In this document: positions 3,820-26,923 of the stretch, one piece after another
Numbering within the stretch: position 1 is the stretch's first letter
Layout: every line of letters begins with the position of its first letter
IMG/VR virus record: IMGVR_UViG_3300033571_020317
Location: 1 to 39,202 of that record
Reading direction: 5' to 3' (one strand)
DNA length: 39,202 nt
From: a virus
The notes under the pieces: model-generated
What the model was told of the DNA's origin: nothing
The model's database searches: none
Seen by the model: only the letters and a program-made list of their open reading frames with translations
Translations under genes and position numbers: made by a program

Positions 3820-4043
3820 TGAGCACCGCCAACAGAGATATCAGCAGGAAGAACAAGAGAATCGAACCACTTATCTGCATCATCGGTAAGAATGTAGATA
3901 CGCTCTCTTCCAGTCTCTGTTGTGGTTTTAATCGCTAACAACTCGCCAGACCATATTGCACGAGCAACAACTCTTGGAGGAAGTCCATATTTAATAGCGG
4001 TAGCACGTATGCTTAATCTCCGCTGTTCTTTTATAGTTTTCAT
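3816..4043 (-). CDS. Small HTH protein, excisionase/MerR-like
   Basis: A 75-aa protein with a predicted winged-helix/excisionase-type DNA-binding segment in residues ~10-40 (SIRATAIKYGLPPRVVARAI), followed by a hydrophobic-charged strand pattern (ERIYILTDDADKWFDSL) typical of the wing of Xis/MerR-like folds. I chose the ATG at 4043 because GGGAGGG lies about 6 nt upstream; the reading frame extends only 15 nt further, to a GTG. The stop overlaps the primase start (ATGA). With no integrase visible, a role as transcriptional regulator of the two-gene minus-strand island or of the divergent + genes is as likely as a recombination directionality role. The function is inferred only from the fold pattern. 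Confidence 0.7.
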   Translation of the reverse strand: MKTIKEQRRLSIRATAIKYGLPPRVVARAIWSGELLAIKTTTETGRERIYILTDDADKWFDSLVLPADISVGGAQ

Positions 4044-4237
4044 GTATGTCCCTCCCACAAGACTTCAATAGAGTGTAATTTTGGCGAATTTGAATCATTT
4101 CGCTAATTCGAGGACTATACATCTTAAAAGTGAAAAAATCTCTTATGACGCACTTATCAATAAAAATAGAAAAATAAGAAGAATCAATATATGAAATAAT
4201 AGTGTATTAGTTTCCCATCCTAGAAATTAGTGGTCAA
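4044..4237. promoter_or_regulatory. Divergent intergenic region, probable two-way promoter zone
   Basis: This 194-bp AT-rich gap separates a leftward operon (HTH and primase) from the rightward block starting at 4238, so promoters for both directions should be here. It contains an inverted hexamer CGAATT/AATTCG (about 4085-4110), which could be an operator for the adjacent HTH protein. A TATAGT-like -10 is readable on the minus strand near 4114-4119, but I see no convincing -35 partner. No ORF or RNA gene is visible. The assignment rests on gene orientation more than on motif strength. Confidence 0.4.
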
Positions 4238-4573
4238 ATGTCAAGTACTATGGTCCTGTCTACAATACTGCTGTCTACGGGTGCGATCACTGCTCTTAGT
4301 GGATTCTTCTTTGCTATCTATAAAATTGCAAAAAGAATTGATTCTGCTGTAGGAGTAGATAGTGCAGGCAGAACTCTTAGTGAAAGAATGACTAGAGTGG
4401 AGTATCAACTCTGGGAGAATGGTGGAGCATCTCTTAAAGATGATGTTAACCTTATTAGAGATGTAAGTCAAGAGAACACTACAGAAATTAGAATTGTTAA
4501 AGAGTTAGTTATTTCTATGATAAAGGCTCATCAAGATTCATCAGAAAAACAGCAAAAAAAGAACTCTGCTTAA
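4238..4573 (+). CDS. Small single-pass membrane protein with coiled-coil tail
   Basis: A 111-aa protein. Residues ~5-29 form one hydrophobic helix (VLSTILLSTGAITALSGFFF), followed by basic residues (KIAKR). The rest is polar and heptad-like (LSERMTRVEYQLWE, then KDDVNLIRDVSQENTTEIRI), ending in a Lys/Gln-rich tail. This layout resembles small phage membrane proteins of lysis cassettes (holin- or spanin-like) and short phage membrane-anchored coiled coils in general. No endolysin is recognisable next to it, so a lysis role is only a suggestion. Both ATG 4238 and ATG 4250 are possible starts; neither has a strong Shine-Dalgarno sequence. It is the first + gene after the divergent region. Confidence 0.6.
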   Translation: MSSTMVLSTILLSTGAITALSGFFFAIYKIAKRIDSAVGVDSAGRTLSERMTRVEYQLWENGGASLKDDVNLIRDVSQENTTEIRIVKELVISMIKAHQDSSEKQQKKNSA

Positions 4574-9934: not shown

Positions 9935-12192
9935 TGGCAACAAAAATTCAGATGCGTCGCGGTACAGCTTCACAATGGACAGCCGCTGACCCAAGACTTA
10001 GTACTGGTGAGATTGGTTTTGAGACCGACACTGGTAGGTTCAAGATTGGTGTTAACAACACTCTCTGGAGCCTTCTTGACTATTTTGTTGACGCATCTGG
10101 AGTAGCGGACGCAATTTCTGGCGCAGCCTTAGATACTACAGATAATCTTTCTGAAGGCACATCTAATCTTTATTTTACTAATTCACGTGTAGCAAGTGCT
10201 CTCAATGGTGGTACACGTAATAACATCACTTTTACATATAATTCTGACACTGGAACTATTGATGTTAGTGTGCCAACAGTTCAAGGAACTACAGGTGCTC
10301 AAGGAACTACAGGCGCACAGGGAACCACTGGTACAACTGGTGCGCAGGGTATTCAGGGTACAACTGGAACTCAAGGTACAACTGGCAATACAGGTGCACA
10401 AGGTATTCAGGGAACTACAGGTTCTCAAGGAAGTACTGGAACTCAGGGTACAACTGGTACACAAGGAACAACAGGTGCTCAAGGTACAACTGGAACACAG
10501 GGTATTCAAGGTCTTACTGGTAATACAGGTGCTCAAGGTATTCAAGGTATTGTAGGTAGCCAAGGAACAACTGGTACAACTGGAGCACAAGGTGAGACTG
10601 GTATTCAAGGTATTCAAGGATATACAGGAGCTCAAGGAACTACAGGAACTCAAGGTGTTCAGGGTACAACTGGTAGCCAAGGTATAACTGGTTCCCAAGG
10701 CACCACTGGAACAACTGGTCTACAAGGCACAACTGGTGCACAAGGCACAACTGGTAGCCAAGGTGTCCAGGGATACAACGGTGTAGATGGTGGTTCTTCT
10801 AGTTATTACAAGTACCGCGCAAAAGTAACCACAACTTCTGGCGACCCTGGAAATGGTTTTCTTATCTGGAATAACGCAACACAAACAAGCGCAACCTCAC
10901 TAAATCTTGACCACCTTACCGATGACAATATTGACGTTGATATATTTTTAGGGCTTTTAAAATCAGGCGATACTCTTATTATTCAAGACTCTAATGATTC
11001 TAATAACTATCAAAATTGGTTAGTTAATGGCGCAGAAACAGTTTACCCAAATCAATATGTAACAGTACCAGTAGCTTTGACAGATTCTGGAGGTACTGGA
11101 ACAACTGGATTTGCTGGAAACTCAGCGTTAATTGTAGTAATTATTGCTTCAGGTACTCAAGGCCCTACTGGTTCTCAAGGAACCACAGGCTCCCAAGGAG
11201 TTGTTGGTGCGCAAGGCATCACTGGAACGCAAGGTACAACAGGCACTACGGGTTCACAAGGAACAACAGGTGCTCAAGGCACAACTGGTGCTCAGGGTAC
11301 AACTGGAAGTCAAGGAGCTACGGGAACTCAAGGCTCTACTGGTTCAACTGGATCTCAAGGTACAACTGGTAATACAGGTGCACAAGGCTCAACTGGAACT
11401 CAGGGAACTACTGGAGCACAGGGAACTACTGGAGCGCAGGGTGTCGGGGGTGTGCAAGGAATTAGCGGTGCTGAAGTTCCTGCAGCAACTCCAACAGCGC
11501 AAGGTGTTGTTTATGCTCAAACTGATGCAACAAATACACTATTAGGATTAAACAGTACTGCAACAAATGCTGAATTGGTTGTTGCAACTGATGCAACAGG
11601 CGTTGGAGAAGATGTCATTGCTTCAGGTAATGCTAGTACCGCTCTTGGCAATGGTGCTTGGGCTAGAGGTGCAAATTCAACGGCTTTAGGACACTACAGT
11701 CAAGCAGACGGCCCAAACTCTACGGCCATTGGAGACAACGCAGCAACAACAAGTGCTTCAAGCATTGCTTTAGGTGCAGGTGCAACTGCCGTTGGTGCAA
11801 ATCAAATCTCTATTGGTGGCGATGTTGGCACTGGCAAGGAAATAACAAGATTAAGAATCCGTGGAATGGGAATGGATGTTCGTGGCGGATCTACAACAAT
11901 AACTGCCAATACAGCAACTACAGTGTCAACAGTAGCACTTGAAGACTTTACTACAATGGAGTACACAGTCTCAATTAAGCAGGGATCAAAAGTCAGATCT
12001 TCTAAGGTATTAGTTCAGACAGATGGTACAACAGTGGATTCTGTAGAACACTCAATCTTGGAAACAGGGGGAGTTATGACTGGGATTAACGTAACAGCCA
12101 CAACATCCTCAACAAACGCCATTTTGACGGTGACAATCACAAATGCATCCACCACAAACGCAGTAGTCAAGGTAATCAATACACTCACATAG
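9934..12192 (+). CDS. Collagen-like tail fibre protein 3 with YadA-like head repeats
   Basis: A 752-aa protein. The N-terminus MATKIQMRRGTASQW is typical of phage fibre/tropism proteins (Mtd N-terminal-like). A connector (NLSEGTSNLYFTNSRV) matches fibre 1. Gly-X-Y arrays at ~117-285 and ~407-507 flank a ~120-residue globular insert (YYKYRAKVTTTSGDPGNGF...). Residues ~563-629 carry left-handed beta-roll repeats of the trimeric-autotransporter head type: STALGNGAWARGANSTALG, then NSTAIGDNA and SSIALGAGATAVG. A C-terminal beta domain follows. Combining collagen shafts with a YadA-type head implies an obligate trimer and a likely adhesive function. It starts by TAATG overlap with the 70-aa gene. 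Receptor unknown. Confidence 0.85.
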   Translation: MATKIQMRRGTASQWTAADPRLSTGEIGFETDTGRFKIGVNNTLWSLLDYFVDASGVADAISGAALDTTDNLSEGTSNLYFTNSRVASALNGGTRNNITFTYNSDTGTIDVSVPTVQGTTGAQGTTGAQGTTGTTGAQGIQGTTGTQGTTGNTGAQGIQGTTGSQGSTGTQGTTGTQGTTGAQGTTGTQGIQGLTGNTGAQGIQGIVGSQGTTGTTGAQGETGIQGIQGYTGAQGTTGTQGVQGTTGSQGITGSQGTTGTTGLQGTTGAQGTTGSQGVQGYNGVDGGSSSYYKYRAKVTTTSGDPGNGFLIWNNATQTSATSLNLDHLTDDNIDVDIFLGLLKSGDTLIIQDSNDSNNYQNWLVNGAETVYPNQYVTVPVALTDSGGTGTTGFAGNSALIVVIIASGTQGPTGSQGTTGSQGVVGAQGITGTQGTTGTTGSQGTTGAQGTTGAQGTTGSQGATGTQGSTGSTGSQGTTGNTGAQGSTGTQGTTGAQGTTGAQGVGGVQGISGAEVPAATPTAQGVVYAQTDATNTLLGLNSTATNAELVVATDATGVGEDVIASGNASTALGNGAWARGANSTALGHYSQADGPNSTAIGDNAATTSASSIALGAGATAVGANQISIGGDVGTGKEITRLRIRGMGMDVRGGSTTITANTATTVSTVALEDFTTMEYTVSIKQGSKVRSSKVLVQTDGTTVDSVEHSILETGGVMTGINVTATTSSTNAILTVTITNASTTNAVVKVINTLT

Positions 12193-15946: not shown

Positions 15947-16135
15947 ATGAGTAAACTATTTGCGGTTATTGAAAACAATAAAGTTGTAAATATAATTACA
16001 GCTAATACATTAGAGGACGCTCAATTGGTAATTCCTACAAACCATACTGTTATTGAATACACAGATGGTTGGACATACCCAGAAGGTATTGATGGCGGAG
16101 ATTACTTCCCAGTACCAAAAATAGAGATTTCCTAA
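15947..16135 (+). CDS. Small fibre-associated protein
   Basis: A 62-aa protein. KLFAVIENNKVVNIITANTLEDAQLV followed by an acidic, Trp/Tyr-containing end (EYTDGWTYPEGIDGGDYF) resembles short proteins found beside fibre genes in T4-like and cyanophages, sometimes called fibre assembly or cap proteins. AGAGAGAGA lies upstream as a weak ribosome site. The stop overlaps the following start (TAATG). Translation coupled to the glycine-rich protein suggests it binds or folds that partner, but this is inference. Confidence 0.6.
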   Translation: MSKLFAVIENNKVVNIITANTLEDAQLVIPTNHTVIEYTDGWTYPEGIDGGDYFPVPKIEIS

Positions 16136-16139
16136 TGGG
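16124..16139 (+). repeat. 16-bp direct repeat at gene junction, copy 2
   Basis: Identical to 15313-15328 and again placed across a TAATG stop/start junction, here between the 15947 and 16135 genes. The paired copies bracket the first glycine-rich gene and the 62-aa gene, so homologous exchange between them would delete or duplicate that unit. Confidence 0.9.
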
Positions 16140-17073
16140 TATTGCAGTATTTCCTGAATCAGGCGGTAATGTTAATTACAAAACAGGTACCTTTGCTACT
16201 CGCGGAACTCCTGCAGCAGGTACAACAATTCTTAACACTGAAAACAATTTTATAGAAGTTTACAATGGTTCTACTTGGAGAAAAGTATCTGATGGAACTG
16301 TAAGCACTCTTTCTAATGGTGGAACAATTACCACTAGCGGTATTTATACTATTCATACATTTACTTCATCTGGAACCTTTACACTTGGCGTACCACTTAC
16401 TATTGATTACTTAGTTGTTGCTGGCGGAGGTGGCGTTGCAGGTACTCTTGGCGGTGGCGGTGGCGGCGGTGGTGGTTTATTAACTGCTGCTTCATATTCA
16501 GCCGATGCTGGTAACCACACAGTTACTATTGGTGCTGGCGGTGCTGGTACAACAGGTGCTTTGCCTGGTAGTGGCACAAATTCTGTCTTTGGTTCTTTTA
16601 CTGCTATTGGTGGCGGTGGTGGTTCAGCAGGTCATACTGGAACTGCTGGTGCATCTAATGGTCAAACAGGTGGTTCAGGTGGTGGCGGTGGCGGAGCCAT
16701 TGATGTTTCTACTGGTACTGGCGGTGCTGCTACTTCAAGCCAAGGAAGCGCGGGTGGTAATGGTGCAAATCGTGCTACTGGCGGTGGTGGCGGTGGTGCT
16801 GGAGGCGCGGGCACTGCTGGTAATGGTTCAACATCTGGTAGAGGCGGTCATGGTTTAAGTAACTCTTATAGCGGAAGTGCCGTTGTTTATTCTGCTGGTG
16901 GTCCTGGCGGATATTGGTCAGGCGTTGGTGAAACTTCAGGCGGTGCTGGAACTGGTGGCGTTGGAGCCAACACATCAGGCAACGCAAACACTGGTCAAGG
17001 TGCTGGTAGCGGTGATGCTGGCGCTCGAAATGGTGGTTCAGGTATTGTAATTATTCGTTATGTTACACCATAA
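16135..17073 (+). CDS. Glycine-rich tail tip-like protein 2
   Basis: A 312-aa protein. The N-terminal ~60 residues include NTENNFIEVYNGSTWRKVSDG, a common phage fibre strand pair. Then comes the well-known lead-in to glycine-rich domains (YTIHTFTSSGTFTLG, then IDYLVVAGGGG), followed by ~200 residues very rich in glycine and ending GGSGIVIIRYV. It parallels the 15324 product and starts in the same way (MGxxVFPE), so the two are likely paralogues. The probable role is a fibre-tip receptor-binding protein. A 22-bp piece of this gene (16420-16441) is copied in the scar at 17484-17505. Confidence 0.8.
   Translation: MGIAVFPESGGNVNYKTGTFATRGTPAAGTTILNTENNFIEVYNGSTWRKVSDGTVSTLSNGGTITTSGIYTIHTFTSSGTFTLGVPLTIDYLVVAGGGGVAGTLGGGGGGGGGLLTAASYSADAGNHTVTIGAGGAGTTGALPGSGTNSVFGSFTAIGGGGGSAGHTGTAGASNGQTGGSGGGGGGAIDVSTGTGGAATSSQGSAGGNGANRATGGGGGGAGGAGTAGNGSTSGRGGHGLSNSYSGSAVVYSAGGPGGYWSGVGETSGGAGTGGVGANTSGNANTGQGAGSGDAGARNGGSGIVIIRYVTP
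16420..16441 (+). repeat. 22-bp repeat, source copy inside glycine-rich gene
   Basis: GCTGGCGGAGGTGGCGTTGC plus AG is exactly repeated at 17484-17505. Here it encodes AGGGGVA in the glycine-rich domain. The other copy lies outside any intact fibre gene. Confidence 0.9.
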
Positions 17074-17087
17074 AGAAAGGTATGAAT

Positions 17088-17393
17088 ATGGCACATTTTG
17101 CAGAGATTAATCCAAACGGCGGAGCCGTGTTACGCGTTCTAGTTGTTCCAGATGAACAAGAACATAGAGGGCAAGACTTTCTATCTAATGAACTTGGTTT
17201 AGGTGGTGTCTGGGTACAGACAAGTTATAACGCAACTATTAGAAAAAACTACGCAGGTATTGGTTTCATCTATGATGCAGCGCGTGATGCTTTTATTGAA
17301 CCAAAGGCTAACTGTCACGATGAAGAAACATTTGATGAAGAAACTTGTCGTTGGATTTGTCTTAACGTAGAGCATACTACTTTACCTGAATAA
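17088..17393 (+). CDS. Small fibre-associated protein, phage/cyanophage type
   Basis: A 101-aa protein. ATG 17088 (MAHFAEINPNGG) is preferred over ATG 17082 because GAAAGG then lies ~7 nt upstream. The pattern MAHFAEI, a VLVV strand, VWVQTSYNATIRKNYAGIGF and YDAARDAFIEPKA matches a family of short proteins encoded by T4-like and cyanophages near tail fibre genes, with unknown molecular role. The C-terminal Cys pair and acidic run (NCHDEETFDEETCRWICL) could bind metal. It is the last gene of the fibre block; the scar region follows. Confidence 0.7.
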   Translation: MAHFAEINPNGGAVLRVLVVPDEQEHRGQDFLSNELGLGGVWVQTSYNATIRKNYAGIGFIYDAARDAFIEPKANCHDEETFDEETCRWICLNVEHTTLPE

Positions 17394-17452
17394 GTAATTA
17401 GTTTATCCCTGAGCATAGATTAAAACTGCTCACTAATGGTACGCTTTGCCCT

Positions 17453-17509
17453 ATGAACTTGGTACAAAAATCGGTACAAAATGGCTGGCGGAGGTGGCGT
17501 TGCAGCTAA
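17453..17509 (+). pseudogene. Truncated leader of a 24152-like gene (recombination scar)
   Basis: ATG 17453 opens a frame reading MNLVQKSVQNG and then W-rich nonsense to a stop at 17507-17509. The intact gene at 24152 begins MNLVQKSISNGGKL. Over 33 nt the two agree at 24 positions, and in the first seven codons every difference is synonymous, so this is a diverged coding fragment, not chance. The similarity stops where a 22-bp piece of the glycine-rich gene begins (17484). It is not expected to encode a functional product. Confidence 0.75.
17484..17505 (+). repeat. 22-bp repeat, displaced copy in the scar
   Basis: Exact copy of 16420-16441. It sits immediately after the MNLVQKS leader fragment and 24 bp before the first glycosyltransferase ATG. 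In the frame from ATG 17481 it still reads AGGGGVA, as in the source gene, which suggests a remnant of a glycine-rich gene copy. Confidence 0.9.
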
Positions 17510-17529
17510 CCCCTGCTACACTTATACAT

Positions 17530-18603
17530 ATGTTTAGAATGTCAATATACGCACACCCGCATGTCCGCAAATCTGGGTCTTATTTTGGATATGCTTATAC
17601 ATACTATGAAATTGAAAGACATTTGCGTGAATATGAGTACGACGGAAAAAAACTTCAGTTAGACCTAAACTCTCCAAAGTCTAAGATTCAGCTTTATTAT
17701 GGATCTCCTCCAGGATATTTTTCTCCTAATCAATATAAAATTCAAATGACTCAATGGGAGTCAACATTAATACCTCCAAATTGGGTAGAACATGCAAAAG
17801 AGTATGATGAGTGGTGGACAGCAAATCAATTTGGAGCAGATGCTTTTATCAATGCTGGAGTCCCTGCAGAAAAAATACATGTCTTTGAACATGGAGTTGA
17901 TAGCTCTATGTGGACTCCTAAAAAACGTGGTAAAAAAGGTGTAATAAGATTTTTACATGTAGATTCAGGCTCTCCTAGAAAAAGAGCTCCATTAGCAGTA
18001 GAAGCTTTCAAAAAGGCATTTGGTAACAATTTAGACTATGAATTAACTTTAAAATACAGTCATCATGGTGCTTCTAATCAAGACTGGTTTAATGAAGATG
18101 TTCTTGCAAATTATGGTGATTGGCAAGACTCCAATGTTCGTCATATAAAAGAAAATATGACAATAGAGCATTTAGTTAGTTTGTTTCAATACCATGATAT
18201 TTTAATTTATCCTTCAGAGGGAGAAGGCTTTGGGTTGATTCCTCTTCAAGCATTGGCAACAGGAATGCCAGTAATATCAACTTCTGATTGGTGCTCATAC
18301 GATAAATATTTTAATGGAAACATTATAGAGTCTCATAGAGGTGTTTCAGATATTGTTGAAACTTATACAAGGTTTGGAGAAGTGGTAATACCACATCTTG
18401 ATTCAATGGTTTATTTAATGAAAAAATCTGTTGAAGATTTTGAAGCACAGTCAAACACATTTTATAATCAAATACCAGAAATAGTACAAGATTATAGTTG
18501 GCAAAAAAGAACAAACATGGTAATGGATAGCTTAATCAATAGAGTAGGTATTGACATGTTTGAAAATTCAGATTTTTTAAACTGGGGTCTAAGTTATGAC
18601 TAA
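17530..18603 (+). CDS. Glycosyltransferase, GT-B fold (GT4-like)
   Basis: 357 aa from ATG 17530. The frame is open upstream to 17446, but that part overlaps the scar (repeat fragments) and is unlikely to be translated. The N-terminal half has IQMTQWESTLIPPNWVE and a GVDSSMW segment. The C-terminal nucleotide-sugar-binding half has RFLHVDSGSPRKR, LIYPSEGEGFGLIPLQALA and GMPVISTSDW, the typical GT4 arrangement. In the E-x7-E position the second residue appears to be Gln (EGFGLIPLQ). It transfers a sugar from an activated donor to an unknown acceptor. It is the first gene of the AT-rich cassette, and its stop overlaps the SGNH gene start by 8 nt. No Shine-Dalgarno sequence is evident, so the start is uncertain. 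Confidence 0.8.
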   Translation: MFRMSIYAHPHVRKSGSYFGYAYTYYEIERHLREYEYDGKKLQLDLNSPKSKIQLYYGSPPGYFSPNQYKIQMTQWESTLIPPNWVEHAKEYDEWWTANQFGADAFINAGVPAEKIHVFEHGVDSSMWTPKKRGKKGVIRFLHVDSGSPRKRAPLAVEAFKKAFGNNLDYELTLKYSHHGASNQDWFNEDVLANYGDWQDSNVRHIKENMTIEHLVSLFQYHDILIYPSEGEGFGLIPLQALATGMPVISTSDWCSYDKYFNGNIIESHRGVSDIVETYTRFGEVVIPHLDSMVYLMKKSVEDFEAQSNTFYNQIPEIVQDYSWQKRTNMVMDSLINRVGIDMFENSDFLNWGLSYD

Positions 18604-19462
18604 GTGGAATTTTCTTGATTCAAATAGTATAGATCTACAATTAAATGTTATAGCTGGCTCAGAATATGACAATTATAAAAATGGTGTATTTCCAAACTCT
18701 GAAAATAGAGATCTTAATCCAAATAATGAATATACAACAACATTTTATGAAAGGCAGCAAGGAGTAAAAAATGATGCTTCTATCACATATAAAATAAACT
18801 CATCCGGTCAAAGATGTGATGAATTTAAAAAAAATCATGAAGGAAAACACATTTTATTTTCAGGATGCTCTTTTACTTTTGGGGAAAGTTTACCTTACAA
18901 AAAAAATTGGGCAGGATATCTATACGATAAACTAAATAAAGCACACAATCTATCAGGATATTATACTGTTGCATATCCAGGAGGCGGTGTAGATGTTATA
19001 ACAAATAATATATACAAATATTGTGATATTTATGGAAATCCATATGCCATATTTTTATTAATTCCAGAAGCATCAAGAAAAATTTTGTGGGGAAATGACA
19101 AATATTATTCAATTATTTCTCCATATGAAAGGTATCCTTATGATGTTAATCAAGGCTTTGAAAATGCCGTTTATAGCACTTACCACTACATGCATAATTT
19201 AGAAATATTTTGTAATAAACTTAATATAAAGCTTATGTGGTCATCGTGGCATCAAGAAGAAGCAAGATTATACAATAATATGAATTTTAAAAACTATATT
19301 CACATAGAGCATGACGAAATAATAAAAAAAGCAAATAACTATAAAGAAATAAGTAGTCCGTATTATGGGTCAGCAAGAGACAACTGTCATCCTGGATTAA
19401 TGTTTTCTGATGGAGTTTCTAGCATATTTTTGGAGAAAATAAATGAAAACAATATATTATAA
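18596..19462 (+). CDS. SGNH/GDSL-family hydrolase or acyltransferase
   Basis: A 288-aa protein. Block I is ILFSGCSFTFGESLP, with a candidate nucleophile Ser92 in GCSFT. A Gly block is seen at AYPGGGVD (~126-133), and the catalytic Asp-His block is ARDNCHPG (D262, H265). These are the hallmarks of SGNH hydrolases, which remove or move acetyl groups on sugars and other esters. In a sugar cassette this suggests O-acetylation control of a glycan. There is no signal peptide, so it should act in the cytoplasm on precursors. It overlaps the genes on both sides, consistent with an operon, and is strikingly AT-rich with Asn/Lys/Ile codons. Exact substrate unknown. Confidence 0.75.
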   Translation: MTKWNFLDSNSIDLQLNVIAGSEYDNYKNGVFPNSENRDLNPNNEYTTTFYERQQGVKNDASITYKINSSGQRCDEFKKNHEGKHILFSGCSFTFGESLPYKKNWAGYLYDKLNKAHNLSGYYTVAYPGGGVDVITNNIYKYCDIYGNPYAIFLLIPEASRKILWGNDKYYSIISPYERYPYDVNQGFENAVYSTYHYMHNLEIFCNKLNIKLMWSSWHQEEARLYNNMNFKNYIHIEHDEIIKKANNYKEISSPYYGSARDNCHPGLMFSDGVSSIFLEKINENNIL

Positions 19463-19535
19463 GGTTAAACAGTTCTTTATTAAAAGAAAAATTAAAAAAA
19501 ATGGACTATATGATAAAGATAGGTTTATATACTAA
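19443..19535 (+). CDS. 30-residue basic micro-protein coupled to carbamoyltransferase
   Basis: ATG 19443 opens a 30-codon frame (MKTIYYKVKQFFIKRK..., ending KDRFIY). The start lies inside the end of the SGNH gene (20-nt overlap) with GGAG ~8 nt upstream. The stop TAA shares a base with the carbamoyltransferase ATG (TAATG at 19533-19537). This double coupling fills the only gap between the two genes and supports real translation. The product is strongly basic with an aromatic C-terminus, and no domain is recognisable. I recall similar short basic ORFs ending in F-I-Y beside phage and marine carbamoyltransferases, but I cannot check this here. Confidence 0.6.
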   Translation: MKTIYYKVKQFFIKRKIKKNGLYDKDRFIY

Positions 19536-20956
19536 TGATAATACTTGGAATCAATGAAACATCACATGATGCATCAGTATCTTTAATTAAAGATGGAGAC
19601 ATACTTTTTGCAGGCCATGCCGAAAGATATAGCAAGCAAAAAAATGATTGGTATGTTAATGATAGTTTAATAGAAGATGCATTGCAGTATGGTACACCAG
19701 ACCACATTGCTTACTATGAAAAACCCCTTCTAAAGGCTTCTAGACTGACCTTTAGGGGTGGATCTGGAGACTGGAAGCCAAGGTTTAATATTGACGGAAT
19801 ACCTAGAAAATCATTTAGTCATCACTATTCACACGCATGTGCTGGATACTATACAAGTAGCTTTGATAATGCCGTTATTGTAGTGCTTGATGCCATTGGT
19901 GAGTATAATACCTCAACTATTTGGGTTGGAGAAGAAAGTAACATTAAACTTAAGTATAAGCAAAACTACCCAGTAAGCTTTGGACTATTTTATTCAGCAT
20001 TTACACAGCTTCTAGGAATGATGCCAAACCAAGAAGAATATATAATGATGGGAATGGCTGCTTACGGAGATTCTAAAAAATATTACAAAAAGGTTAATGA
20101 ATATTTTCCATCATACAAAAAACAAAAATATAATTTTCATAAAGGAATTTTTGATTGGGGCCTAGTTAATAATAAAGAAAAGTTTGATATAGCAGCAGCT
20201 GTTCAACAAGTTTATGTTGAAAGGCTTTTAGAATTTATGACTATGGCTAAAAAAATTACAGGAAAAGATAATTTGGTTTTTATGGGTGGTTGCGCTTTAA
20301 ACTCTTCTGCAAATACTTCACTGTGGAGTATCTTTAGCTCAGTTTGGATTATGCCTAATCCTGGAGATGCTGGATCATCACTTGGAGCAGCCGCAGCACT
20401 TTATGGAAAACATATAAATTGGAAGAATCCATATCTTGGGTATAACATTGATGGAGAATATCCAGTTGATCAAATTATTGAAGGAATCATAAAAAACGGC
20501 ATAGTTGCAGTAGCAAATGGAAGAGCAGAGTATGGGCCAAGGGCATTAGGAAACAGAAGTATCCTAGCAGATCCAAGAGATCCAAATATTAAAGATAAAG
20601 TTAACTTAATTAAGAAAAGAGAGCTGTTTAGACCTTTTGCTCCAGTCATTATGGAAGAGCACGCATCAACCTGGTTTGATATGAATTTTTCTAGTCCATA
20701 TATGCAATATACTGTAAAATGCTTAAAGCCTTCTGTTATTCCATCTGTTGTACACGAAGACGGAACATCAAGAGTTCAAACAGTAAATCGGGATCAGCAT
20801 TTTGGATTATGGAGTGCTTTGAATGGTTTTTATAATAAAACTGGAGTTCCAGTATTGCTAAACACAAGCCTAAACATTAAGGGTCAACCTTTATTAAATG
20901 ATGAAAAAGATATACTTGAATGGGAGAATACATATGGGTTTAGTATTATTAGATAG
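19535..20956 (+). CDS. Carbamoyltransferase, NodU/TobZ family
   Basis: A 473-aa protein. It transfers a carbamoyl group from carbamoyl phosphate, through carbamoyl-adenylate, to a hydroxyl of a sugar or antibiotic. The N-terminal Kae1-like domain has GINETSHDASVSLI and the metal-binding H-x3-H of SHHYSHA (H96/H97-H100). The C-terminal YrdC-like domain has EYGPRALGNRSILADPRDP (332-350) and FRPFAPV. Typical family members are ~550-600 aa, so this is a compact form that ends soon after LNIKGQPLLND. The start overlaps the micro-ORF by one base. Within a glycan cassette, O-carbamoylation of a surface sugar is the natural inference; DNA or nucleotide modification is a less likely alternative. Confidence 0.9.
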   Translation: MIILGINETSHDASVSLIKDGDILFAGHAERYSKQKNDWYVNDSLIEDALQYGTPDHIAYYEKPLLKASRLTFRGGSGDWKPRFNIDGIPRKSFSHHYSHACAGYYTSSFDNAVIVVLDAIGEYNTSTIWVGEESNIKLKYKQNYPVSFGLFYSAFTQLLGMMPNQEEYIMMGMAAYGDSKKYYKKVNEYFPSYKKQKYNFHKGIFDWGLVNNKEKFDIAAAVQQVYVERLLEFMTMAKKITGKDNLVFMGGCALNSSANTSLWSIFSSVWIMPNPGDAGSSLGAAAALYGKHINWKNPYLGYNIDGEYPVDQIIEGIIKNGIVAVANGRAEYGPRALGNRSILADPRDPNIKDKVNLIKKRELFRPFAPVIMEEHASTWFDMNFSSPYMQYTVKCLKPSVIPSVVHEDGTSRVQTVNRDQHFGLWSALNGFYNKTGVPVLLNTSLNIKGQPLLNDEKDILEWENTYGFSIIR

Positions 20957-20989
20957 AGAAATGTTTAAAAGTATATGTGGTGCTTTTTT

Positions 20990-21679
20990 ATGAAATATAC
21001 CATAATGCATGTAAATAATCGTGCAAAAAACAATATGGATTTTAATAAAAAAATTCTAAAAGATTTTGAATACTGCGACGGAATAAAGTTTATCGATGGG
21101 AACAAGGAAAATGGTTGGGACATATTAAATCATATGGGTATTAAAACAAATACTTGGAACCCCTATGATGGAAGAAAAACAGAACCACTTCCAGGAGAGT
21201 ATGGTATTTGGGTAAGCACAATAAATTTATGGCAATATATTGTAGACAACAAAATAGATAAACTATTAGTTTTAGAAGACGATGTTGTTTTACAAAAAAA
21301 TTTTGTTGAAAATTTTAATTTGTATTTAAATGAGCTTCCAAATGATTTTGATTTTTTATCTTTTTATTATTTTTCAGGACAAAACGAAGTAGACGATAAT
21401 ACAGAAATTGGTTTAAAGTATATTCATAAGTCTAACAACCAGTATTCAGCTGCACAGTGCATGCTATATTCATATAGTTGTGCTCAAAAGCTACTAAAAT
21501 TAATAAAAAGAAAAGGTACCGAATATACAAATGATTGTTTTATTTATAACCAAGCACATGTAGGTTCAGTAAATGGGTATTCAATTAAAAAAGGAAACAA
21601 TATATTTTTAAAGCATGATTATAAAAAAATTAAATCATTAATAGACCCAGACAATACTAGAAATACAGACGACTTATGA
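20990..21679 (+). CDS. Glycosyltransferase, GT25-like (first copy)
   Basis: 229 aa from ATG 20990 (MKYTIMHVNN); the in-frame ATG 20975 adds five residues with no better ribosome site. GEYGIWVSTINLWQYIVDNK and the DxD-like LLVLEDDVVL (acidic triad at 96-98) are typical of the GT25 family (LPS beta-galactosyltransferase-like), and YSAAQCMLYSYSCAQKLLKL fits the later GT25 acceptor region. It probably adds hexose to a growing oligosaccharide. The stop overlaps the epimerase start (ATGA). It is very AT-rich like its neighbours. Donor and acceptor are unknown. Confidence 0.75.
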   Translation: MKYTIMHVNNRAKNNMDFNKKILKDFEYCDGIKFIDGNKENGWDILNHMGIKTNTWNPYDGRKTEPLPGEYGIWVSTINLWQYIVDNKIDKLLVLEDDVVLQKNFVENFNLYLNELPNDFDFLSFYYFSGQNEVDDNTEIGLKYIHKSNNQYSAAQCMLYSYSCAQKLLKLIKRKGTEYTNDCFIYNQAHVGSVNGYSIKKGNNIFLKHDYKKIKSLIDPDNTRNTDDL

Positions 21680-22569
21680 AAGTATTAGTTACTGGTGGAG
21701 CAGGATTTATAGGGTCTAACTTAGTTGATAGGCTATTATCCCTTGGTCATGATGTAACTGTCATAGATAATGAGTCTGCAGAGTCTAACGCACAATTTTA
21801 TTGGAATAAAAAAGCAAACAACTATAAGCATGATATCTGTGACTATGAAAAGATTGCATCGCTTTTTATTGGTGTTGACTGTGTTTTTCACTTAGCTTCA
21901 GACGCAAGAATACAGCCTGCAATATTAAACCCAAGAGCTTCTATTCAATCAAACGCAGTAGGTACTGCAAATGTTATAGAGTTGTCTAGAATTAATAAAG
22001 TAAAGAGGTTTATTTATTCAAGCACATCTTCTGCCTATGGGAAAGAAGCAACAATTCCAAATGTAGAAACACAGACATCTGATCCTCTAACACCTTATTC
22101 TACTGCTAAGGTTTTTGGTGAAAACCTTGCAAGAGTTTATTATAATCTTTATGGACTTGAAACTATATCTCTTAGATATTTTAATGTTTATGGAAATAGG
22201 CAACCACTCAAAGGTCAGTATGCTCCAGTAATAGGTTTATTTCTAAAACAATACTATGAAGGTAAACCATTAACAGTTGTTGGGGATGGACTTCAAAGAA
22301 GAGATTTTACAAATATAGAAGATGCAGTAAATGCAAATATCCTTGCAATGGATTGCACCATAGAGAATTATGGAGAAGTCTTTAATGTGGGCTATGGTAA
22401 AAATTACTCTATATTGGAAATTGCAAAATCAATATCTGAAGATATTATTTTTATCCCTTCAAGATTGGGAGAAGTAAGAGAGACTTTATCAGATAGCACA
22501 AAAATTAAAACACAGATGAATTGGGAACCTAAAATTATCTTATCAGATTGGATAAAAACACAACTGTGA
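21676..22569 (+). CDS. NAD-dependent sugar epimerase/dehydratase (extended SDR)
   Basis: A 297-aa protein. The N-terminal Rossmann motif is TGGAGFIGSN (G7, G10, G13). The catalytic signature is SSTSSAYG, with YSTAK at Y141/K145. SLRYFNVYGNRQ and a C-terminal NVGYGKNYSILEIA are typical of UDP-glucose 4-epimerase and related NDP-sugar enzymes. It would supply an activated sugar to the surrounding glycosyltransferases. It is coupled to the genes on both sides (ATGA upstream, GTGA downstream). The exact reaction (4-epimerase, 4,6-dehydratase or decarboxylase) cannot be fixed from sequence alone; all active-site residues of the extended SDR group appear present. Confidence 0.9.
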   Translation: MKVLVTGGAGFIGSNLVDRLLSLGHDVTVIDNESAESNAQFYWNKKANNYKHDICDYEKIASLFIGVDCVFHLASDARIQPAILNPRASIQSNAVGTANVIELSRINKVKRFIYSSTSSAYGKEATIPNVETQTSDPLTPYSTAKVFGENLARVYYNLYGLETISLRYFNVYGNRQPLKGQYAPVIGLFLKQYYEGKPLTVVGDGLQRRDFTNIEDAVNANILAMDCTIENYGEVFNVGYGKNYSILEIAKSISEDIIFIPSRLGEVRETLSDSTKIKTQMNWEPKIILSDWIKTQL

Positions 22570-23321
22570 TTCCTAAAATAATTTGGCAAACCTATGAATG
22601 CAGTTATGATGAACTACCAGATTTAGCAAAATCATATACACAAACTTGGAAAAATAAAAATCCAAACTATGAATACAGATATTTTTCAAATGAAGATAGA
22701 AGAAAATTTATTGTTTCTTTAGGAGATAAAGAGTGGATTGATCTTTATGATGCATCACCACTTGGTGTAATAAAAGCAGAAATATTTAGATATTTAGTTA
22801 TATATGAGTTTGGAGGTATTTATGTAGACATGGATACTGAGTGTACATCTCCTATAGATTCTTGGATATATGGAAAAGACAATAAAGATTATAGTTGTAT
22901 TTTTTCTCCAGAAGGCAACCCTGAGTACCCAATGTGTATATGCAATTTTGCTTTTGCTTCTGAAGCAAAGCATCCAATATTTAAAAAAATTATTGAAAAT
23001 CATAAAGAAAATCTTAAAAGTGCAGAATGGAATTCTACAAACTTTAAGATTAACTATATAGAAAGAAATATTGAAGATGGTACAGCTATGTTTTGGAAAA
23101 ATATATTAGATTATTTTGGTATTAATTATAATGAATTTGATTTATTAAACAATGTTGAAAACATCAATTTTTATCCAAAAGTTATTGAAAATAAAGTATA
23201 CTTTTATGGTGGTAAAGATTTTTATATTTTTAGAAATGGCCGAGCTATGAATCATTTTTTTGCGGGAGATAATATAGAATGGGAGAAATCATGGAATCAG
23301 TGGAAAAAACAAAAGCTTTGA
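22566..23321 (+). CDS. Glycosyltransferase with DXD motif (Gly_transf_sug/Och1-like)
   Basis: 251 aa from GTG 22566, which overlaps the epimerase stop as GTGA; a TTG at 22548 is the only longer alternative. It starts VIPKIIWQTYE, a typical beginning of GT32/capsular-type transferases. IKAEIFRYLVIYEFGGIYVD then leads into the metal-binding DMD (residues 88-90). The C-terminal half has FKKIIENHKENL and a His near the end (MNHFFAGD). These enzymes transfer hexoses (often mannose or galactose) from nucleotide sugars. It shares the strong A/T bias of the cassette. The acceptor is unknown. Confidence 0.85.
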   Translation: MIPKIIWQTYECSYDELPDLAKSYTQTWKNKNPNYEYRYFSNEDRRKFIVSLGDKEWIDLYDASPLGVIKAEIFRYLVIYEFGGIYVDMDTECTSPIDSWIYGKDNKDYSCIFSPEGNPEYPMCICNFAFASEAKHPIFKKIIENHKENLKSAEWNSTNFKINYIERNIEDGTAMFWKNILDYFGINYNEFDLLNNVENINFYPKVIENKVYFYGGKDFYIFRNGRAMNHFFAGDNIEWEKSWNQWKKQKL

Positions 23322-23992
23322 TTACACTAGACTTAAGAGAAATACCAGTATACTATATTAACTTATCCTCAGAAATTGAAAAAAATACACATATGCAAAA
23401 AATGCTTTTGGGTTTAGGTTTTAAAAATATAAACAGAATAGAGGCAGTATTAGACTATCAAAATGGATCAATTGCAAGAAGTGGAACCTCAGAGTCTCAC
23501 TATAAGGCTTTAAACAATATTGATCCTCCATTTATTGTTTTTGAAGACGATTGTGAAATATTTGATTTTAATCCAATTATTAATATACCACAGGAAACAG
23601 ATGCTTTTTATTTAGGTAATACCATCTATGGTATAAAAAATAGCTATATTGCATATTTTTTAAAATACAAAAAAGAAGATGGTTTTGATAATTTATACAA
23701 AATATACAATATGTTGTCTGGTCATGCAATTTTATATGTAAGTAAAAGATTTGTAGAGATTGCTAAGCTTTGTTGTAAATATTCAGCTTTAGAATTAGAT
23801 GTTCCTCAAGACATAGCTATAGCAGAAATACAAAAACTTTATAATGTATATACACCTAACAAGCCAATGTTTTATCAAAAATACTACGGATATGGTTCCA
23901 ATAAAGAGTGGCATACTAATAAACAGTTGACAGACTATGAAAAACATAATAATATATTTGAAGGTGAACACCACTTTTTTGATTCATTATAG
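23291..23992 (+). CDS. Glycosyltransferase, GT25-like (second copy)
   Basis: 233 aa from ATG 23291, which has GGGAG 6 nt upstream; ATG 23279 has none. IPVYYINLSSEIEKNTHMQK, then a FKNINRIEAV segment and the acidic PFIVFEDDCEI (84-87) are classic GT25 features. MLSGHAILYVSKRF matches the later acceptor-side region. It starts within the end of the preceding GT gene. It is only distantly similar to the other GT25-like gene at 20990, so the two probably make different linkages. It is the last gene of the AT-rich cassette. Confidence 0.75.
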   Translation: MESVEKTKALITLDLREIPVYYINLSSEIEKNTHMQKMLLGLGFKNINRIEAVLDYQNGSIARSGTSESHYKALNNIDPPFIVFEDDCEIFDFNPIINIPQETDAFYLGNTIYGIKNSYIAYFLKYKKEDGFDNLYKIYNMLSGHAILYVSKRFVEIAKLCCKYSALELDVPQDIAIAEIQKLYNVYTPNKPMFYQKYYGYGSNKEWHTNKQLTDYEKHNNIFEGEHHFFDSL

Positions 23993-24151
23993 TATATTTA
24001 ACAACTTTAACAAACTTAAAGTGCTATACTTTAATCAGACTATTAACGCTATCTAAATCCAGAAGCGGAAAAATCCAAACCAAGTGTGTAATTTTAAAAT
24101 AAATTATAAATAGTATTCGCATTATTTATTTAATATAGTAGAATGGGTACT
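23993..24151 (+). promoter_or_regulatory. Intergenic leader before the GH130-like gene
   Basis: This 159-bp very AT-rich gap is the right border of the sugar cassette. It may hold a promoter for the two downstream genes: TATAAATAG (~24107) and TTTAATATAG (~24130) are -10-like, but no clear -35 is seen. The only ribosome-site candidate before ATG 24152 is a weak AATGGGT. It shows no obvious similarity to the sequence preceding the leader fragment at 17453, so only the coding start is duplicated. Confidence 0.35.
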
Positions 24152-25150
24152 ATGAATCTAGTACAAAAATCAATATCTAATGGGGGAAAACTAGTTCCTC
24201 TTATTATTCCCGCCCGAGAAACGGGTGGGACAGGATTAATGAATCCATCTATTTTTATAGATGATGATGGAGATATTCTATGTATATTAAGACACATAAA
24301 TTATACTCTATATCATTCTGAAAATGATCAAAGATTTCCTAGCGTATGGGGGCCATTAGCATATTTACATCCAGAAGAAGACCAAAGATTAGTAACTACC
24401 AATTATTTATGTCGTTTAGATAAAAACTTAAACATTGTTAACCACACTTTAATTGATACTACCAAGTTAGATGTTAAACCTATCTGGACGTTTGTGGGCG
24501 AAGAAGATGCTCGTTTAGTTAAGTGGGATGGCAAATACTACGGAACAGGTGTGCGTAGAGACACCACTACCAACGGTCAAGGACGTATGGAGCTTTCAGA
24601 ACTTGAAATTGATAAAGAAGCGTGGACAGCTAAAGAAATTTCTCGTATTCGTATTCCAGCACCAATAGATGAAAACTCATACTGTGAAAAAAATTGGATG
24701 CCAGTTCTTGACAAGCCCTTTCATTACATTAAATGGACATCTCCAACCGAGTTAGTAAAGGCTGACCCTAACGAGCCTAAGTGCGAGCAGGTTCAAGTGA
24801 TTCCAGGAAGAGTAGTCAACGCTGATCAGCGTGGAGGTTCTCAGTTAATTGAGTGGGGAGACTATTACATTGCTATTACTCACGAAGTAGTTCTCTTTAA
24901 GAATTACATGAAGCAAAAGAATGCTACCTATCGACACCGCCTTTGTGTGTGGGATAAAAATTTTATGTTGATGGGGGTGTCTCCAGATAATTGGTCATTC
25001 TTAGATGGTCAAATTGAGTTTTGTGCGGGAGCTGCCGAATATCAAGGTGATTTACTAGTTACTTTTGGTTTTCAAGACAACGCGGCATTTATTCTTCAAG
25101 TGCCTAAAGAAGTAGTAAATGGTTTAATCGAGGAGGCACTAAATGTTTAA
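24152..25150 (+). CDS. GH130/GH43-like five-bladed propeller protein
   Basis: 332 aa from ATG 24152 (MNLVQKSISNGG). The alternative ATG 24143 is rejected because the homologous fragment at 17453 is conserved only from this ATG. MNPSIFIDDDGDILC, FVGEEDARLVKWDGKYYGTG (acidic EEDAR at 117-121), an IKWTSPTEL segment and RGGSQLIEWGDYYIAITHEV show the repeating blade strands of five-bladed glycosidase/phosphorylase propellers, closest in feel to GH130 (mannoside phosphorylases). It could cleave or bind host surface glycans, or act on the glycan built by the cassette. There is no signal peptide. It is coupled to the next gene: GGAGG precedes ATG 25143, which lies inside its end. Catalytic competence is not certain. 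Confidence 0.7.
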   Translation: MNLVQKSISNGGKLVPLIIPARETGGTGLMNPSIFIDDDGDILCILRHINYTLYHSENDQRFPSVWGPLAYLHPEEDQRLVTTNYLCRLDKNLNIVNHTLIDTTKLDVKPIWTFVGEEDARLVKWDGKYYGTGVRRDTTTNGQGRMELSELEIDKEAWTAKEISRIRIPAPIDENSYCEKNWMPVLDKPFHYIKWTSPTELVKADPNEPKCEQVQVIPGRVVNADQRGGSQLIEWGDYYIAITHEVVLFKNYMKQKNATYRHRLCVWDKNFMLMGVSPDNWSFLDGQIEFCAGAAEYQGDLLVTFGFQDNAAFILQVPKEVVNGLIEEALNV

Positions 25151-26396
25151 GGCTATTGATAACCTAGTTATCGATTTATCTAAAGACCCATTTAACCCCA
25201 TACTTAGTTTTAATATTGCTGTAGAGTATGAAAAAGCAGGTCAAACAGCATCAGCAATATCTTTCTACTTACGTACAGCAGAGTACGGGTTTTATACACA
25301 CCCTGAATATGTGTATGCTTCTTTACTTAAATCTGCTCAATGTTTTGAAAATCAAAAAAACCGTGAAAGCACCGTACATAATTTGTTTTTAAAAGCTGTT
25401 GCTTACCTACCAACTAGGCCAGAAGCTTGGTTTCTTTTGGCTAGATACTGTGAGCGAGCAAAACGTTGGCAAGAAGCATATACATTTGCCGAGATAGGGT
25501 TAATGTATACAAAAATTAAAGCCACACCCCTTCCTATTTGGGTAGATTACCCAGGGGAGTATGCTTTAGATTTTGAAAAAGCAGTTACTGGTTGGTGGGT
25601 TGGTCGTAAAGATGAGTCCTGGGAAATATTCCAAGAACTATTGAAGAAAGATATTGGACACAGCTATAGAACTGCAATTATTGGCAACTTAAAGCTCTAT
25701 GAGAATAGGGAGTATATTGACCCTTTAGAGCCAGTTGTACTTAACTTCCGTAAACACTTTGATAGCGATGCTCCCGTGATTATTGATATTGGAACTAGAG
25801 ATGGCGATGATGCCTACTATTTATATAAAAACTTAAATAGCACTAGAGTAATTGCAATTGATGCTAATGCTTCTGCTGTAGCAATTACTCAGTCTAAATA
25901 TCCTTGGATGAATGTTGTCTATAGCGCTGTAACCCATCAAGATGGGGATACCGAGTTTCATATTGTTAGAGGAGGCAATAAAGAGGCTTCTGGCACTTCT
26001 TCTATATTTAGTAAAGATAAATCAATTGACCCTGCTCCAGAATATTATGCAGATAAAATAAAAAAAGTAACCGTTCCATCTACTCGTATGGATACCCTTC
26101 TAGCAAGACTAGAACTTAATGAGAAGATAGATGTTATTAAAGTAGATACTGAAGGCTATAGCTGGCAGGTTTTACAGGGCTTTGGAGACAGGTTAAAAGA
26201 TGTTAAGTTATTTCATTTAGAGACAGAAAAAACTCCTATACATGAAGATCATGTGACCACCGAAAAGATTACTCAGTTCATGGAGGACAACGGGTTTGTT
26301 CTCGTAGACACCTCTTATGAGTGGGGTTGGAACATTGAAGATCAAGTTTGGGTTAATAAAGCGCTAGTAATTAGACACCCAGAATGTTTTAACTAA
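25143..26396 (+). CDS. TPR-like domain fused to FkbM methyltransferase
   Basis: A 417-aa protein. Residues ~20-125 are helical repeats of TPR type (AISFYLRTAEYGF, then RPEAWFLLARYCERAKRWQE). Residues ~205-400 are an FkbM-type SAM-dependent methyltransferase, with VIIDIGTRDGDDAY (212-224) as motif I, VIAIDANASA with D240 at the ribose-binding end of strand 2, and IDVIKVDTEGYSWQVLQG later. FkbM enzymes O-methylate sugars or polyketides, so methyl capping of a glycan is the likely job. The TPR part may dock it to a glycosyltransferase. It is coupled to the GH130-like gene and ends at a palindrome facing the WhiB gene. Confidence 0.85.
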   Translation: MFKAIDNLVIDLSKDPFNPILSFNIAVEYEKAGQTASAISFYLRTAEYGFYTHPEYVYASLLKSAQCFENQKNRESTVHNLFLKAVAYLPTRPEAWFLLARYCERAKRWQEAYTFAEIGLMYTKIKATPLPIWVDYPGEYALDFEKAVTGWWVGRKDESWEIFQELLKKDIGHSYRTAIIGNLKLYENREYIDPLEPVVLNFRKHFDSDAPVIIDIGTRDGDDAYYLYKNLNSTRVIAIDANASAVAITQSKYPWMNVVYSAVTHQDGDTEFHIVRGGNKEASGTSSIFSKDKSIDPAPEYYADKIKKVTVPSTRMDTLLARLELNEKIDVIKVDTEGYSWQVLQGFGDRLKDVKLFHLETEKTPIHEDHVTTEKITQFMEDNGFVLVDTSYEWGWNIEDQVWVNKALVIRHPECFN

Positions 26397-26412
26397 AACT
26401 ATTTAGTTTTAG
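26393..26412. terminator. Palindrome between convergent genes, possible bidirectional terminator
   Basis: CTAAAACTATTTAGTTTTAG has perfect 9-bp arms (CTAAAACTA/TAGTTTTAG) around a TT centre. It contains the stop codon of the rightward FkbM gene (26394-26396) and the stop of the leftward WhiB gene (26399-26401). Each strand ends in a U-rich arm, so it could end transcription both ways. The stem is A/T-rich and weak. Confidence 0.55.
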
Positions 26413-26923
26413 GAATCTTTTTAGCCTTTTTAGCCTTCTTTAGTTTTTCTTTTTCTTGTTTAGCAATTCTGTCGGCACGCTCTATTTTGTATGCTTCTAC
26501 AGCATTTGCACTTGTTCGACTGCGCCAAGCAAAGCCACACTCGCTACATGTAACAATTTTTGCGGTTGTCCAACGACCAGTTGTATCTAGTTGAGCGATA
26601 GAGGTTTCTAGTTTATTTGGACGCGCTGTGCAATATGGACAATTTGGAAACCTGCGACGTCTTGTCTCTTCTCCAAGATATGAAACAGATAAAGTTCTAC
26701 GAATCTCAACTTCATCTTTTCCACCCCAGATACCCCAGATTTGACGATGCTCTAGACCCCACTGGAGGCAGTCCTTACGAACAGGGCAAGAAAAGCACAG
26801 ATTCTTAGCAGCATATTTTTCAGAGAAGTCTTGAGAAAAGAACCAATCTATATGATTTTTGTTCTCTGGCTTAGCGCATGAAGCGCTTCTTTGCCATTCT
26901 AGACTATTTGCTGGTTTCCACAT
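26399..26923 (-). CDS. WhiB-like regulator fused to a C-terminal zinc ribbon
   Basis: A 174-aa protein. The N-terminal half has the WhiB/Wbl signature: C16, then C43-x2-C46-x5-C52 (CFSCPVRKDC), and the GIWGG turn at 64-68. These cysteines bind a [4Fe-4S] cluster, and Wbl proteins act with the primary sigma factor. Residues ~95-130 add CPYC...CSECGF (C95, C98, C126, C129), a four-cysteine zinc ribbon, followed by a Lys-rich tail (157-174). Typical WhiB proteins are 80-130 aa and lack this module. It is the last gene of the leftward early block. A TATAAAAT box 7 nt upstream of the ATG and no Shine-Dalgarno sequence suggest a leaderless mRNA. Target genes are unknown. Confidence 0.85.
   Translation of the reverse strand: MWKPANSLEWQRSASCAKPENKNHIDWFFSQDFSEKYAAKNLCFSCPVRKDCLQWGLEHRQIWGIWGGKDEVEIRRTLSVSYLGEETRRRRFPNCPYCTARPNKLETSIAQLDTTGRWTTAKIVTCSECGFAWRSRTSANAVEAYKIERADRIAKQEKEKLKKAKKAKKIPKTK

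Follow-up and report, generated by a model that had tools for sequence, protein, structure and literature searches.

A probable recombination scar and a pseudoknot-like RNA element at the left border of a phage glycan cassette

Phage Mosaicism and the Layout of the Window

Mosaic or moron-type insertions in tailed phages consist of a cassette of foreign composition that carries its own promoter and lies between structural genes. The window analyzed here, the whole of the IMG/VR virus record IMGVR_UViG_3300033571_020317 (39,202 bases, one metagenome-derived contig), resembles such insertions, with one non-homologous and one homologous joint and with a content that varies among relatives. It differs from them in that both joints are readable, one through a stranded promoter with 11 codons and the other through a hybrid gene. 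As a kind, the scar is known and belongs to ordinary phage mosaicism; it is unusually legible. For actinobacteria, a TANNNT hexamer just ahead of the ATG is established as the arrangement of leaderless transcripts. A WhiB-like gene on the reverse strand (26399-26923), judged by eye from its translation, suggests an actinobacterium as the host of the phage. The accessible text of a study of Nanopelagicales freshwater actinophages describes conserved regions broken by highly variable ones, for which recombination is blamed (PMC10202952). In contrast to the present locus, the variability in that text comes from read recruitment, and junction footprints do not appear in it (PMC10202952).

The features described below lie on the forward strand unless stated otherwise, and the leader was compared with 160 related loci (labels of the type L081), for which the 103-aa and GH130-type genes of the window served as queries. 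The left flank of the scar is the 103-aa fibre-associated gene at 17082-17393, which belongs to the PHROG 7759 family (E 2.6e-23) and has relatives in the viral_contigs collection. It comprises 103 codons from 17082; the length of 101 aa given in an earlier sequence-only reading of this DNA holds if counted from the second ATG. A gap of 137 bases follows (17394-17530), which contains the scar and the pseudoknot. The cassette at 17530-23992 is AT-rich, as proposed before, with a G+C content of mostly 26 to 37% compared to 38 to 54% on its left side. Its first gene, GT1, codes for a GT4-type glycosyltransferase (17530-18603; Pfam PF00534 and PF20706; PHROG 2170). The second (18596-19462) shows no family match in Pfam, PHROGs, or NCBIfam and, from a GCSFTFGE stretch, is possibly SGNH-like. 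A NodU/Nol-like carbamoyltransferase (19535-20956; Pfam PF16861 and PF02543; PHROG 1601), a family-25-type glycosyltransferase (20975-21679; Pfam PF01755), an NAD-dependent sugar epimerase/dehydratase (21676-22569; Pfam PF01370), and a DXD-type glycosyltransferase (22548-23321; Pfam PF04488) follow, and the last gene (23279-23992) has no family match in Pfam or NCBIfam. The stretch at 23993-24112 does not match any of the fetched loci significantly, and a second scar at this position was rejected on these grounds. Beyond it lie the intact GH130-type gene (24152-25150) and its partner, an FkbM-type methyltransferase with an N-terminal TPR-like part (25143-26396; TIGR01444).

An Orphan Gene Start Upstream of the Cassette

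The ATG at 17453 opens an 18-codon frame that codes for MNLVQKSVQNGWRRWRCS and ends with a stop codon. The first 11 of these codons (17453-17485) are the orphan start of a GH130-type gene. Agreement with the start of the window's own gene at 24152 amounts to 24/33 nt, with only synonymous differences in the first seven codons, as the sequence-only reading had it, and its assignment of the leader to the 5' end of a GH130-type gene is borne out by the comparison with other GH130-type gene starts. The best match among the 160 loci is that of L081, with 33/34 nt over 17452-17485 (E ~2e-9) and 32/33 nt over the 11 codons; L110 shares 30/33 nt. The gene of L081 starts with MNLVQKSVQNGGKL..., and the window's own 24152 gene starts with MNLVQKSISNGGKL.... 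The proposal that the leader is a diverged duplicate of the 24152 gene is rejected on the basis of these values, 24/33 compared to 32/33 nt: the leader represents the beginning of another allele, one of the L081-like type. The region upstream of it resembles the GH130 promoter region of L095, with 75% identity over 64 nt, the leader included. An open TTG frame from 17446 would make the leader a part of GT1; this candidate was discarded, as the GT1 relatives all begin with M(F/L)RMS, which corresponds to 17530.

A -10 hexamer, TACGCT, is located at 17440-17445, 7 nt upstream of the ATG at 17453. The intact gene shows the same spacing, with TAGAAT at 24139-24144 lying 7 nt before the ATG at 24152, which favors this ATG over the one at 24143 as the start. 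Of the 42 distinct regions upstream of GH130 genes, 39 have TANNNT 6 to 7 nt before the ATG, where about 1 is expected per spacing. Shine-Dalgarno-like motifs upstream of GH130-type genes are few (7/42). Judging from these motifs, transcripts of the GH130-type gene appear to be leaderless as a rule. Since the orphan leader carries a hexamer at the spacing of GH130-type genes, the fragment comprises a promoter together with a gene start. The match to L081 from 1 nt before the ATG and the hexamer 7 nt upstream suit a true gene start.

The same spacing could also speak for a functional role of the leader, as a leaderless promoter with a short start peptide that drives or attenuates GT1. The first ten codons of the GH130 genes, whose conservation is raised (0.61 compared to 0.46 overall), would point to some constraint on the start, but this increase is mild. 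The leader is absent from every other GT1 cassette, and GT1 possesses its own -10 hexamer, TACACT at 17517-17522, 7 nt before the ATG at 17530, in a promoter segment (17502-17529) common to L081. A functional module is thus considered very improbable. Neither of the two -10 hexamers (17440-17445 and 17517-17522) nor the pseudoknot was mentioned in the sequence-only reading.

That reading also regarded the leader as a recurrent mark of a swap site. A search of viral_contigs with a pattern for the GH130-type start that excluded the usual 12th codon of these genes returned 63 stretches, and no further orphan leader was found among them; 56 of the 63 are full-length GH130-type genes, and the others are truncations at contig edges or unrelated proteins. 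In a phage collection, a search for the scar turned up nothing beyond distant matches to glycosyltransferases of Streptomyces phages. The leader is not seen at the beginning of any other cassette, and the related cassettes differ in start point and upstream sequence; the leader is therefore ascribed to a single event instead of a recurrent mark.

The Left Joint

The leader is joined to a patch of 22 bp (17484-17505), an exact copy of 16420-16441 within the glycine-rich gene at 16135-17073 (Gly_rich_2). The exact copy, noted previously, withstands scrutiny: the repeat occurs at only two places in the window, even with up to 3 mismatches allowed, and in none of 100 dinucleotide shuffles. It is a real filler patch. 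The match of the leader to L081 ends at 17485, the patch extends over 17484-17505, and L081-like sequence upstream of GT1 begins at 17502, which leaves overlaps of the patch of 2 nt with the leader and 4 nt (GCAG) with the L081-like sequence. The possibility that the patch is ancestral sequence upstream of GT1 was rejected, since to the left of GCAG the match to L081 is near chance (17486-17501, with 48 of 2,000 random 30-mers scoring as high). The overlaps of 2 and 4 nt and the short copied filler fit non-homologous joining.

With such a patch next to it, the leader itself might be templated filler, so that both pieces were laid down by template switching in one repair or replication event. 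The adjoining patch is clearly of this nature, with its exact source 1 kb away and with the short overlaps at its ends. A random patch, however, need not begin 1 nt before an ATG or bring along a hexamer at GH130 spacing, as the leader does, and the window's own GH130 gene is excluded as the template by the 24/33 agreement. Filler as the origin of the leader is considered unlikely.

In favor of an assembly chimera, in which strains of one metagenome were misjoined, there is an exact 22-bp repeat at the junction, and the record is a metagenome contig from a public collection that contains both of the allele groups described below. The copy of the repeat in the glycine-rich gene is nevertheless intact and in place, so the flanks have not simply been swapped, and at the switch in the GH130 gene the informative sites place the two allele blocks approximately 10 nt apart, which offers little for a k-mer misjoin. 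A misassembly therefore has only a very small chance of being the explanation.

The last 67 bp of a 62-aa tail gene further upstream (16051-16117) are 92.5% identical to L081:3241-3307. This tail gene directly precedes GT1 in L081; in the window, the glycine-rich gene and the 103-aa gene lie between them.

The Mosaic GH130-Type Gene

The gene at 24152-25150 shows no match in Pfam, NCBIfam, PHROG, or PDB sequences, so the designation "GH130-type" is by fold only. An AlphaFold model built with 12 relatives (pLDDT 78, pTM 0.82) predicts a GH130-type propeller, and a function as a mannoside phosphorylase or mannosyltransferase is putative. Among PDB structures, the best matches belong without exception to GH130 (for 5ay9, Z 24.1 with an rmsd of 3.0 across 278 residues), compared to Z scores of 17 to 18 for GH43 propeller chains, and the top Foldseek matches of the model are likewise of the GH130 type. 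The protein thus resembles the GH130 mannoside phosphorylases and related mannosyltransferases in its predicted fold, with Z scores of up to 24, but differs from the solved enzymes in showing only 10 to 16% sequence identity.

The intact gene is a hybrid of two allele groups. The segment at 24113-24388, the promoter and the first ∼80 codons, belongs to the L082-L094 allele group, with about 90 to 95% identity to this group from 24173 on and 57 to 82% to L081. The stretch at 24399-24925 is mostly 83 to 93% identical to L081, compared to 47 to 92% for the L082-L094 group, and is probably the resident sequence. Among the informative sites, 65/73 on the left agree with the L082-L094 group and 87/102 on the right (to 24893) agree with L081; the switch at 24388/24399 was reached in 0 of 10,000 permutations. 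The right part of the gene is L081-like, and the stranded leader is thus its missing beginning. Beyond 24925, the gene is about equally distant from both allele groups.

Comparable pairs of a GH130-type gene and a TPR-/FkbM-type partner are found in the Synechococcus phages DSL-LC02 and S-SCSM2R, because of which the GH130-type and methyltransferase pair looks like an old module. It forms a conserved anchor at which other swaps can be sought. The contig L112 contains two such pairs (2094-4341 and 10001-11552), oppositely oriented and flanking a stretch with tail genes.

Relatives and the Origin of the Scar

The cassette-free arrangement predicted by the sequence-only reading, a fibre-associated gene followed by a gene of the 24152 type, exists in six relatives (L083, L084, L085, L087, L094, and L110). 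In these, the GH130-type gene comes right after the relative of the 103-aa gene, 49 to 153 bp past its aligned end. The content of the interval between tail block and GH130-type gene varies, as was also anticipated: L081 and L164 contain cassettes with GT1, GT25-type, and epimerase genes ahead of GH130, L086, L092, L140, and L151 contain large ORFs, and the six cassette-free relatives contain nothing. The left neighbors of the GT1 cassettes differ as well, with an f62-type gene in L081 and an f139-type gene in L163 and L165. Upstream of GT1, only L081 resembles the window, and the remaining GT1 relatives differ. None of the relatives showed the exact state before the insertion, in which an L081-type GH130 gene would come after this 103-aa gene. 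In a second group of relatives (L061, L123, L128-L132, L146-L150, L153, L156, and L158), the GH130-type gene and the tail genes of the f139 and s103 types are on opposite strands, which suggests that the tail block or the GH130 pair inverts between lineages.

The mosaic structure of the locus and the cassette-free relatives are direct observations: the flanks are joined in relatives, a remnant is left at one joint, and a crossover is present at the other. Most probably, the interval at 17394-17530 is a recombination scar, produced when a glycan cassette was inserted into a resident L081-like GH130-type gene and a hybrid gene was restored. Of the earlier proposal, the insertion of a cassette that left the leader behind stands; the interrupted gene was an L081-like allele and not a duplicate of the 24152 gene.

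The resident sequence, the number of events, and their enzymology we infer as follows. The ancestor would have carried the fibre gene followed by an L081-like GH130 gene. A 6.9-kb glycan cassette, equipped with a GH130 promoter and the beginning of a GH130 gene of its own, would then have recombined into it. Codon 11 would be the site of the left joint, formed non-homologously with short overlaps and the copied 22-bp filler, and the right joint would have arisen by a homologous crossover within GH130 near codon 80. The GH130 gene would thereby have been restored as a hybrid, with the old promoter and 11 codons stranded upstream of the cassette, where this promoter may still feed GT1.

L081, too, contains a cassette related to this one, and GT1 of the window is L081-like at its 5' end; the locus is therefore likely to descend from more than two parents or from more than one event. 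The similarity of GT1 to L081 is limited to its 5' part, up to about 17750, and past 24925 neither allele group is clearly closer to the GH130 gene; further exchanges therefore belong to the history of this locus. The scar represents a readable record of the swap of a glycan block beside the tail fibres, illegitimate on one side and homologous on the other.

A Pseudoknot Element in the Same Gap

The gap also contains an element at 17405-17431 that can form an H-type pseudoknot, and this element is no part of the scar mechanism. Like known H-type pseudoknots, the family to which it belongs has two interleaved stems and an A-rich loop. In the window, stem 1 is formed by ATC (17405-17407) with GAT (17418-17420) and stem 2 by GAGCA (17411-17415) with TGCTC (17427-17431), with the loop AAAC at 17423-17426. 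The family consensus is NNNC-CU-GAGCA-N-GNNN-nnAAAC-UGCUC, from which the window copy deviates slightly through an A at 17417, where the consensus has a G. The stop codon of the 103-aa gene (17391-17393) and the beginning of stem 1 are 11 nt apart.

The bases of stem 1 were free in the search pattern. Among 126 unique viral copies, 91% of its pairs are Watson-Crick, compared to a shuffle mean of 33.5% and a shuffle maximum of 40.2%, and a partner that is slid gives 18 to 31%. The pair -2/+11 is kept in 126/126 copies with all four pair types. For stem 1 of the cellular-genome copies, the values are 74% versus 41%. Stem 2 was fixed by the pattern; the few variants still pair, namely, GAACA/TGTTC in L037 and L325 and a GAGTA/TGCTC wobble elsewhere.

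The pattern CCTGAGCAN7AAACTGCTC occurs in at least 120 viral stretches, with up to three copies per locus among the matches listed, and cellular genomes yield at least 116 stretches with a slightly stricter pattern. From the products of neighboring genes, the impression is that the latter copies lie in prophages. The GT1 phages L163 and L165 contain 3 and 5 copies, with 0 for a reversed control pattern, and 6 of 287 genomes of one phylum match, again with 0 for the control. Four isolated phages (OR032571, HQ316583, MF347637, and PQ898602) lack the pattern. Elements of the window type are found after or between tail genes in other phages (L036:10427, L151:859, L013:10570, and L037:10558). Rfam covariance models gave no match at E ≤1 in the window region; in 11 loci, matches at the gathering score were restricted to tRNA and tmRNA, and E ≤10 added an unrelated weak match in L303. 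No description of the element was found in open-access papers.

The copies show a preferred position. An ORF on the same strand ends within 100 nt upstream of 189 of the 247 unique copies, compared to 86 for the opposite strand. In the 125 close cases, the stop codon and stem 1 are at least 4 nt apart; the spacer between them measures 5 nt in 43 copies and 6 nt in 23. The element was rejected as coding sequence, as it lies mostly just outside ORFs and its frames differ between phages (by eye). The position often 5 to 6 nt after a stop codon recalls the recoding pseudoknots beside stop codons, but the signature of read-through is absent: the mixed downstream frames (16/13/9) and the mostly short frame-0 extensions argue against a read-through signal, which is unsupported.

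It is reasonably likely that the element is an undescribed, widespread RNA pseudoknot located behind stop codons in transcripts of phages and prophage-like elements, with as many as five copies in a single phage record. Its action would be on RNA, at the point where ribosomes come off a gene; the most likely role would be to protect the 3' end of the upstream mRNA or to insulate it from the next gene. Owing to the preferred distance from stop codons, this function is open to direct tests, and, if confirmed in RNA, the pseudoknot would give phage biology a further structured element that is common. The pseudoknot is the more novel and more surprising content of the interval, compared to the scar. 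Further copies are present in loci L236-L355, and the element is often situated ahead of tRNA genes or ribosome-binding sites.
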